Shown here in pieces: positions 15,920 to 17,278 of a DNA stretch of 48,901 bases. The stretch comes from Acidobacteriota bacterium (GTDB lineage: Bacteria > Acidobacteriota > Terriglobia > Acidiferrales > UBA7541). The notes under the pieces are model-generated. The model was not told where the DNA came from, searched no databases, and saw only the letters and a program-made list of their open reading frames with translations. The position numbers and the translations under genes were made by a program. The number at the start of each line of letters is the position of its first letter. Position 1 is the stretch's first letter. The stretch covers positions 1 to 48,901 of the forward strand of contig QHYZ01000082.1 in the NCBI GenBank assembly GCA_003225295.1, given 5' to 3'.

Positions 15920-16020
15920 CCACCCGACAGGGGCGAAATCCCGAGGAGCCCGCCGCGGCGGGCGAGGAAGGATCCTTCCCCTGGTTACTTCTTTACCGCA
16001 TTCCTTCTACACTCTTTCCC

Positions 16021-16254
16021 ATGGATCCCGTCCGCGAACTCGGCCGCACCCTCCTCGTTCTCGGCGCCCTGCTCTTCTCCGTTGGCGCGGTACTTTATTT
16101 CGGCGGAAAACTCCCATTGCGTCTCGGCCACCTCCCCGGCGACATCATCCATAGAGGCGAACACACCACTTTCTATTTCCCCATCGTCACCTGTCTCGTC
16201 CTCAGCCTCGGCCTCTCTCTCCTCTTCTGGCTTTTTGGACATCTCCGCAAATAA
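16021..16254 (+). CDS. DUF2905 family small membrane protein
   Basis: 77 aa. Two hydrophobic helices (about residues 8-27 and 52-72) flank the conserved motif LPGDIIHRGEHTTFYFPI, which defines DUF2905. The family is widespread as a tiny inner-membrane protein of unknown function. It stands about 100 bp after ndk in the same direction and converges with the cysteine protein gene. Family call firm, role unknown. Confidence 0.85.
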   Translation: MDPVRELGRTLLVLGALLFSVGAVLYFGGKLPLRLGHLPGDIIHRGEHTTFYFPIVTCLVLSLGLSLLFWLFGHLRK

Positions 16255-16293: not shown

Positions 16294-16773
16294 TTACCTT
16301 ATTTTCTCCACGCCAAACTCCGCGCGAATAAAAGCCTTGATCCCTTCCTCCCCCGTCAATCGCAGGCACAGCAATTTGCCCTGGCGCTCGACATCGATGT
16401 GAAAATCAAAGAACGGGCAGCACTTGCTTTCCGCGCCGACCCACTCCGCCAGCTCAGCAAGCGATATGTCCGTCGGGCGGTACTGAAATTCGTAGCCTTT
16501 CGCTGTTTCCGCGATCGCCTTTCGCAGCGCCTGCAATTTCTCTCCCAATTGCTGATGGCGCGCCCGCTCCGCCGGATTCAGCGCTTTGGTGTTGCAATAG
16601 AATTTGCTTTGTGTCGTTGCCACTTGTTTCTCCTGCTCCATGAGTGCGGTTGAGTCTTGAGCAACGAGCCCTGCCGCTTCGCCGCCCACAATCAGTAGCG
16701 CCAGCGCCGCACTTGCGGTCACCGCCGCCCTTCTTTGGCTCACTTTTCCAAACCGTTCCCGGTTGCTATTCAT
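16294..16773 (-). CDS. membrane-anchored CCPF-motif cysteine protein under MerR-type control
   Basis: 159 aa. Residues 17-35 form a signal anchor or signal peptide (AAVTASAALALLIVGGEAAG), so the rest probably lies outside the cytoplasm. The soluble part has FYCNTKALNPAERARH (C60), a helical middle, and AEWVGAESKCCPFFDFHID (C118-C119), then C136 and LTGEEGIKAF. Proteins with this ERxCCPF-type motif recur beside MerR-like regulators in metal-resistance loci in my memory, but I know of no assigned function. A GGAGG lies 6 nt before the ATG. The gene is divergent from merR, and the promoter between them has the MerR geometry. I infer a metal- or thiol-stress-induced protein. Confidence 0.72.
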   Translation of the reverse strand: MNSNRERFGKVSQRRAAVTASAALALLIVGGEAAGLVAQDSTALMEQEKQVATTQSKFYCNTKALNPAERARHQQLGEKLQALRKAIAETAKGYEFQYRPTDISLAELAEWVGAESKCCPFFDFHIDVERQGKLLCLRLTGEEGIKAFIRAEFGVEKIR

Positions 16774-16814
16774 GGCTTTCCTCCAAAATAGGATTTGCCA
16801 CGTCCCATCCCCGG

Positions 16815-16845
16815 ATGCTAGAACTTAAAGTCAACTTTAAGTCAA
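16815..16845 (-). promoter_or_regulatory. MerR-type promoter with 19-bp spacer
   Basis: On the minus strand TTGACT (16840-16845) and TAGCAT (16815-16820) are separated by exactly 19 bp, the over-long spacer that MerR-family activators untwist. The spacer holds the inverted repeat at 16823-16842. It points at the CCPF protein gene, whose ATG is 42 bp downstream of the -10. Confidence 0.75.
16823..16842. promoter_or_regulatory. perfect inverted repeat, MerR-family operator
   Basis: ACTTAAAGT-CA-ACTTTAAGT: perfect 9-bp arms with a 2-bp centre, lying between the -35 and -10 boxes. This is where MerR, CueR and SoxR bind in well-studied systems. The shared region probably also autoregulates merR. 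Confidence 0.8.
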
Positions 16846-16867
16846 GCGATATTTCAGGAGCACCATC

Positions 16868-17278
16868 ATGAAGATCGGTGAACTTTCCGCCCGCGCCAAC
16901 CTCAACGCCTCCGCCATCCGTTACTACGAAAAACTTGGTCTCCTGGCTGCGCCACAGCGGATCGGCGGGCAGCGTCGCTACCCCAGCGGCGCCCTCCAGC
17001 GCGTCCTCCTCGTGCGCTTCGCCACCGACATGGGCTTCACCCTTTCGGAAATCAAGCTCTTCCTCAACGGCCTGGGCGACCACATCCCCGTCGGCCCTCG
17101 CTGGAAAAAACTCGCCAGCCGAAAACTCGTCGAAGTCAAAGAAAACATTTCCCGCTCCCTCAAACTCAAATCTCTCCTCCAGGGCCTTCTACACTGCCAC
17201 TGTGCCTCTCTCGAGTTCTGCGTCACCCGCCTCAGCCTTAGCCCCAACCTCCGTGGCCTCTCTCGGAGCAACCGATGA
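16868..17278 (+). CDS. MerR family transcriptional regulator, metal-sensor type
   Basis: 136 aa. The winged helix-turn-helix is typical: MKIGELSARANLNASAIRYYEKLGLL (residues 1-26) and the wing RYPSGALQRV, then the long dimerisation helix to about residue 105. The C-terminal ligand region has C110 and C112 in LLHCHCASLEFC plus C118, a cysteine arrangement suited to a soft or divalent metal. GGAG precedes the ATG. The gene is divergent from the CCPF protein and has its operator in the shared promoter. Which metal or stress it senses cannot be told. Confidence 0.9.
   Translation: MKIGELSARANLNASAIRYYEKLGLLAAPQRIGGQRRYPSGALQRVLLVRFATDMGFTLSEIKLFLNGLGDHIPVGPRWKKLASRKLVEVKENISRSLKLKSLLQGLLHCHCASLEFCVTRLSLSPNLRGLSRSNR

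Follow-up and report, generated by a model that had tools for sequence, protein, structure and literature searches.

What does a MerR-type regulator sense, and what can it accomplish, when the only gene that it faces encodes a small three-cysteine protein? The question is raised by two divergent genes within a 48,901-nucleotide stretch of DNA, analysed here in full and denoted the window, from an 8.13-Mb genome in 385 contigs; the closest named relatives of the window, identified by protein search, are Acidobacteria MAGs. The MerR-family regulator gene (positions 16868 to 17278, plus strand; 136 amino acids, SoxR-like, with the CxCx5C residues C110, C112 and C118) and the CCPF protein gene (16294 to 16773, minus strand; 159 amino acids, a hydrophobic N-terminal segment followed by a three-Cys a-b-b-a-b-b-a domain) are separated by a gap of 94 bp. 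Both ORFs are located where the preliminary description placed them, and no transporter or reductase, the absence of which was also pointed out there, is found among the ORFs of the window that adjoin the pair. The intergenic promoter appears to drive a single gene, the one for CCPF, in agreement with that description; the small ORF beyond it (16020 to 16254) lies, by eye, on the opposite strand.

The promoter consists of the -35 element TTGACT (16840 to 16845, minus strand) and the -10 element TAGCAT (16815 to 16820, minus strand), which are 19 bp apart, and of the perfect 9-2-9 operator dyad ACTTAAAGT-TG-ACTTTAAGT (16823 to 16842, minus-strand reading) within the spacer; the ribosome-binding site GGAGG read from the sequence (16780 to 16784, minus strand) is six bases ahead of the ATG of the CCPF gene. 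A dyad between the -35 and -10 elements with a 19-20 bp spacer is the arrangement of MerR-type promoters, and the -35 element, the 19-bp spacer and the dyad noted originally are all present in the sequence, reading toward the CC gene. Mononucleotide shuffling of the 94-bp gap, repeated 20,000 times, yielded a perfect dyad with 9-base arms and a gap of 0-4 bases in 21 cases, and the entire 48.9-kb window contains four such dyads, the operator included. Comparison with relatives is more telling. The -35 and -10 elements, with the 19-bp spacing, are exact in all 15 rows compared (the window and L010-L023). The dyad keeps at least seven of its nine pairs in 20 of 23 rows and is perfect in only four, in a hand-chosen set scored by a script that favours dyads (L064, L065, L068 and L071 were left unscored); five pairs are kept in L023 and L066, and the L067 dyad was misplaced by the script, its site being located by an operator-pattern search. 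The merR-CCPF gap varies between 86 and 262 bp across the relatives (the broken L019 excluded), the same promoter architecture is found in Bacillus and Paenibacillus plasmids, and L027 shows no such promoter. A leader segment, ATGGGACGTGGCAAATC (16792 to 16808, minus strand), located between the -10 element and the start codon and exact in 10 of the 15 rows, is conserved besides the promoter and is a possible second regulatory element.

The search for merR-CCPF neighbour pairs that the preliminary description proposed revealed a conserved arrangement: the protein search yielded 18 relatives of the CCPF protein, with a MerR gene adjoining in 15 (L019 retains only a merR fragment, and L025 and L026 have no adjacent MerR). 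A chance pairing of the two genes is rejected because both the adjacency and the promoter are conserved across relatives, which is a stronger argument than the shuffles. The distribution of the CCPF gene is patchy, given that it is carried by 28 of 121 related genomes and by 19 of the 36 genomes of the window's genus (window included). These 121 genomes contain 29 CCPF places (one of them the window, and many of them the same records as L010-L022 or the 18 relatives), of which 20 have a MerR gene (broken in two, L137 and L142), 18 an intact CxCx5C site and 17 the promoter pattern. In a wider sample of the phylum, MerR is found within about 1.5 kb at only 9 of 23 CCPF places. As a separate observation, the CCPF gene is present where the merR frame is broken or truncated (L019/L137 and L142), with the promoter kept in L019/L137.

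A scan of the 8.1-Mb genome that allowed up to three mismatches located the operator pattern at a single place, so that, at this stringency of pattern matching, the CCPF protein looks like the entire regulon, and the earlier suggestion that the small protein may be the whole output is supported by this comparison. Among 297 genomes of the phylum, the pattern is found in five, and the reversed control pattern gave one match. The five are the window's genome, G179 and G286, both with CCPF operons (positions compared with L067 and L072), and G125 and G237, in which the operator lies ahead of a regulator that has all the SoxR cluster cysteines, with an SDR gene alongside. Of the 29 plasmid records with a match to the operator, just 5 are at CCPF loci. 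The operator was considered as a metal signature and rejected because dyads of the same kind precede SoxR-SDR, MFS, flavodoxin and DUF2938 genes, the latter three under other MerR proteins.

The assignment of the regulator to the MerR family stands, with the N-terminal MerR winged HTH scoring above the curated cut-offs of Pfam (53.4 bits against 21.6 for PF13411 (MerR_1), 45 against 28.2 for PF00376 and 30.5 against 25.4 for PF09278), but the SoxR-like Cys site was initially overlooked. The best NCBIfam match is SoxR (TIGR01950), at 75.5 bits, below the cut-off of 116.9; the score for the Hg(II)-responsive MerR model is 65.3 bits, below the cut-off of 150.85. The alignment to SoxR (2zhg) spans the cysteine region, with three of the four cluster cysteines retained: instead of the complete set, CxxCxCx5C, the window regulator has CxCx5C only, with L107 replacing the first cluster Cys. 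In the alignment to 5crl, no Cys is present at the C82 position of the Hg MerR.

A tree of 44 regulators puts this site into context. All 22 CCPF-linked regulators in the SoxR half of the tree, including that of the window, carry CxCx5C, and the four-Cys form is absent among them. A moderately supported fork (81/91) unites these 22 and also takes in two plasmid MerRs without the motif (L099 and L103); two four-Cys SoxRs fall outside it. The other CCPF-linked regulators are in the opposite half, together with the Hg-type MerR1 of L028 and the MerR fusions. Close to the window regulator are also a plasmid regulator with the three-Cys site that has no CCPF gene within 3 kb (L127) and a regulator of the four-Cys SoxR type (L128). 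It is conceivable, although we lean slightly against it, that CCPF is a general, hitherto undescribed domain of bacteria and haloarchaea that binds metal(loid)s through three thiolates and is employed as a sponge after export, as a partner of ACR3-like and MerF-like transporters in the cytosol, and as the sensing half built into MerR fusions; in the window's clade, the loss of one cluster ligand would then have converted a SoxR-type redox sensor into a three-thiolate sensor of metal(loid)s, with a single such sponge as its entire regulon.

In the CCPF protein, the CC pair noted in the preliminary description is confirmed, within the CCPF motif at residues 118-121, but a third conserved cysteine, C60, had escaped attention. 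The codons of C60 (16594 to 16596, minus strand) and of C118-C119 (16417 to 16422, minus strand) correspond to cysteines present in 57 of the 57 aligned members from bacteria and haloarchaea, a count that is biased upward because the search seed peptides and profiles contained these cysteines and so favoured members that keep them; E115 is found in 56 and F121 in 55. The alignment includes one sequence per locus by choice, with some start codons set by hand, and leaves out L025, L026, L078, L082, L090, L107 and the near-duplicate L063; a Cys ahead of the CC pair is found also in L107 (= L055) and at the place of L082 (L052), and L078 was missed by the simple pattern. The protein had also been called signal-anchored, and hydropathy, which is the sole basis here, agrees in that there is a hydrophobic N-terminal segment. 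At a hydropathy cut of 1.9, such a segment is recognized in 17 of the 57 members and in 10 of 16 among the window and L010-L024.

The family of the CC protein, described as unknown at the outset, has no matching Pfam or NCBIfam model in the members tested. In Pfam, neither the window protein nor any of 13 diverse members matched a model at E<=1, and the L057 fusion matched by its MerR domains only; in NCBIfam, nothing scored over the cut-off for the window protein, nothing reached E<=0.01 for five members, and the best E value for the 13 members was 0.02. This last signal, from the FtrB double-selenoprotein model, amounts to 13.8 bits against a cut-off of 160 (E 0.02-0.04, weak in 2 of the 13), and the kinship was rejected; no FtrB double-selenoprotein kin was found in 61 related genomes. 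Thioredoxin-like or ferredoxin kinship was likewise rejected, with no family match. AlphaFold2 models blocks within residues 61-150 at a mean pLDDT of 89-96 as the a-b-b-a-b-b-a domain, with low confidence at the N-terminus. The Foldseek comparison of the domain with the PDB gave no match at E<=0.001, and the best structural match, AhrC (VIA Z 7.0, rmsd 2.9, 80 aligned), is in the range of common arrangements; no relative of solved structure was considered meaningful. A phage origin was rejected as well: one member had no match in phages, the exact operator is absent from viral_contigs, and three members were negative in PHROGs except for one match at E 0.061.

Outside the acidobacteria, CCPF genes are found on plasmids, and 23 annotated loci were chosen from 40 distinct records (L029/L063 and L031/L032 are near-duplicates). 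A transporter of the SBF or 'arsenic resistance' type is encoded in 14 of these 23 (L028, L029, L033, L057, L059-L063, L085-L087, L089 and L094), ars genes are present in eight (L029, L031, L032, L063, L086, L087, L089 and L093), merB or merA in seven (L028, L033, L058, L060, L062, L086 and L087), and a MerR gene is adjacent, close by or fused in 15; L030, L088, L090, L091 and L092 have neither SBF nor ars nor merA/merB genes. This association is weakened by the general abundance of metal genes on plasmids. Fusions of the CCPF domain to MerR proteins occur in Rhodococcus, Streptomyces and Mycobacterium, and in a search with the Rhodococcus domain, 17 of 23 plasmid records are labelled as a MerR or heavy-metal-responsive regulator at the match. 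The SBF neighbours in L028 and L057 score far below the cut-off of the ACR3 model. ACR3 carries a Cys in the LARCIAM motif; among 12 aligned SBF neighbours (16-20% identity), a Cys aligns with it in nine, and a Glu is common to all 12, the three haloarchaeal transporters being without the ACR3-aligned Cys. By eye, seven loci (L028, L030, L057, L085, L086, L087 and L093) encode, beside CCPF, small membrane proteins that resemble MerF/MerT and whose first hydrophobic stretch contains a CC pair; for those of L028 and L057, Pfam gave no match and NCBIfam one weak match (L057 to MerT_CopZ_Se, E 0.0098). Redoxin, thioredoxin or CcdA genes are located beside CCPF in four loci (L087, L092, L094 and the acidobacterial L067). 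Among these, the Rhizobium locus (L092:4809-5324) encodes a CCPF domain followed by a hydrophobic segment and a CGCGSC motif, and then come thioredoxin and CcdA genes. A small membrane protein of the YnfA family is another recurrent neighbour (L030, L031, L032, L065, L067, L088, L091 and L093).

The metal link rests on these distant relatives because, in the window's own clade, no As, Hg or other neighbour genes were found beside the pair: 32 queries against L010-L023 recovered MerR alone. In the wider phylum sample, L067 has an arsC-like frame near CCPF, and at a distance of about 3 kb there is an ArsR-like frame in L065 and a P-type ATPase in L080 (28-38% identity for all three). In L067 (4820-7337), CCPF belongs to a redoxin/TlpA-like operon, with a divergent three-Cys MerR, a YnfA-like gene past the regulator and the arsC-like frame downstream. 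The window's genome has no ACR3 at E<=0.001 and no MerA over the cut-off.

The merR-CCPF pair is probably a switch by which a soil bacterium lets the CCPF protein catch a toxic thiol-binding metal(loid), such as arsenic or mercury. More specifically, we favour, with modest confidence, a minimal response unit for thiophilic metal(loid)s in which a three-thiolate sensor controls an exported three-thiolate binding protein. The SoxR-like regulator would sit on the over-long promoter with the 19-bp spacer; a soft metal(loid) with a preference for coordination by three thiolates (the likeliest candidates being As(III), Sb(III) or a relative, and otherwise Hg(II) or an organomercury compound) would bind at the CxCx5C site; the loaded regulator would untwist the promoter in the usual MerR manner, and one gene would be transcribed; its product would be exported, bind the same kind of ion via C60 and C118-C119 and, outside the cytoplasm, soak it up or hand it over. 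The presence of three-Cys sites on both sides of the switch would fit a ligand that, like As(III), takes three thiolates. We infer the ligand, its binding, the export and the sequestration alike, with a metal of either the As(III) or the Hg type. The metal/thiol module envisaged in the preliminary description is thus partly borne out: the conserved pair, the single operator and the plasmid relatives that are in As/Hg clusters or fused to MerR speak for it, but the proximity of the regulator to SoxR and an operator type shared with four-Cys SoxR genes and other MerR targets speak against a response to metals only.

The proximity to SoxR and the thiol-redox neighbours in four loci make a redox or electrophile response the main rival. 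Under this explanation, which we judge unlikely, the thiols of the SoxR-like regulator, or a partial Fe-S site in it, would respond to oxidants, electrophiles or NO, and CCPF would be an envelope thiol/disulfide protein. The kinship with SoxR and the occurrence of the operator type at four-Cys SoxR genes of two genomes would be accounted for, but one of the four [2Fe-2S] ligands is gone in all 22 CCPF-linked regulators of the SoxR half, the CCPF protein matches no thioredoxin family, and elsewhere its gene has As/Hg neighbours and MerR partners that are fused or on the Hg side of the tree. If a metal(loid) is sensed, it could be mercury instead of arsenic, with CCPF as a MerP-like exported binder of Hg(II) or organomercury under a relative of the Hg-sensing MerR. 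This sub-case appears somewhat unlikely. It draws on the merB or merA genes in seven of the 23 plasmid loci, the MerF/MerT-like neighbours recognized by eye, and the CCPF-linked MerRs that share a half of the tree with the Hg-type MerR1; however, the C82 position is not occupied by a Cys in the window regulator, which scores less than half of the cut-off of the Hg model, MerT and MerA are absent beside the pair, the CCPF neighbour in L067 is an arsC-like frame and not a mer gene, and the host has another MerR, located on a different contig near a MerB-like frame and a MerT-like gene, that fits the Hg model better (113.5 bits, its best match, below the cut-off).

An alternative of a different kind, which we consider quite improbable, is that CCPF is mainly a helper of the sensor that loads metal onto the MerR protein or removes it. 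The MerR-CCPF fusions on actinobacterial plasmids suggest such intimacy, as do L064, L068 and L071, where the two frames are on the same strand and abut or overlap. In the window's clade, however, the hydrophobic N-terminal segment of CCPF would set it apart from the cytoplasmic regulator.

Such a unit resembles several known systems without coinciding with any of them. The window regulator shares with SoxR (TIGR01950; 2zhg) the MerR fold, the DNA-binding half, the 19-bp-spacer operator type and the spacing of the last three cysteines, but has L107 in place of the first cluster Cys, scores below the family cut-off and drives the gene of a three-Cys protein rather than soxS or a redox enzyme. 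MerP is an exported binding protein with a Cys pair, so that the mercury operon (MerR with MerP/MerT) is similar in combining a MerR-type regulator, a 19-bp-spacer promoter and an exported Cys-pair protein, the export being a prediction in the present case; the window locus differs in lacking MerT, MerA and MerB, in a regulator without the C82-type Cys, and in a CCPF protein that does not match the MerP/HMA models of Pfam and NCBIfam. ArsD has a vicinal Cys pair plus a third Cys, and CCPF resembles ArsD and other three-cysteine As(III) sites in this respect, but CCPF has no Pfam or NCBIfam match, and it is probably exported in the window's clade rather than cytosolic. The control of a small metal-binding protein by a MerR regulator has precedents: in GolS-GolB and CueR-CopZ, the output of the MerR regulator includes a small metal-binding protein. 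These systems differ from the present one in the binding domain and in that a single operator was found in the window's genome. The putative binding domain of CCPF matches no model in the libraries searched; in the PMC literature, no description of the merR-CCPF pair was found among the matches listed.

The three-Cys CCPF family recurs in As/Hg clusters on plasmids of bacteria and haloarchaea, yet no Pfam or NCBIfam model covers the members tested. Should CCPF prove to bind soft metal(loid)s, the ars and mer systems would gain a component that has been missing. The two-gene acidobacterial unit would be a very small test system for ligand change in a SoxR-type sensor, and a candidate biosensor part.

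The other MerR cluster of the host, on a separate contig (L117:5478-7091), includes a DF-family protein and the MerT-like membrane protein, which has a CCLPVLP motif. The MerB-like frame nearby (L117:4019-4660, that is, G000:C264:80018-80659) matches alkylmercury lyase and has, toward the end of this match, an in-frame TGA (IVFT-TGA-KTM), possibly at a catalytic-site Cys of the enzyme. Since SelB scores over the cut-off in the host genome and the DF-family (seleno)protein is near this frame, the frame may encode a selenoprotein MerB, the alternatives being a plain stop or an error. A MerB-like selenoprotein, SaoL, is already listed in PMC13188914.
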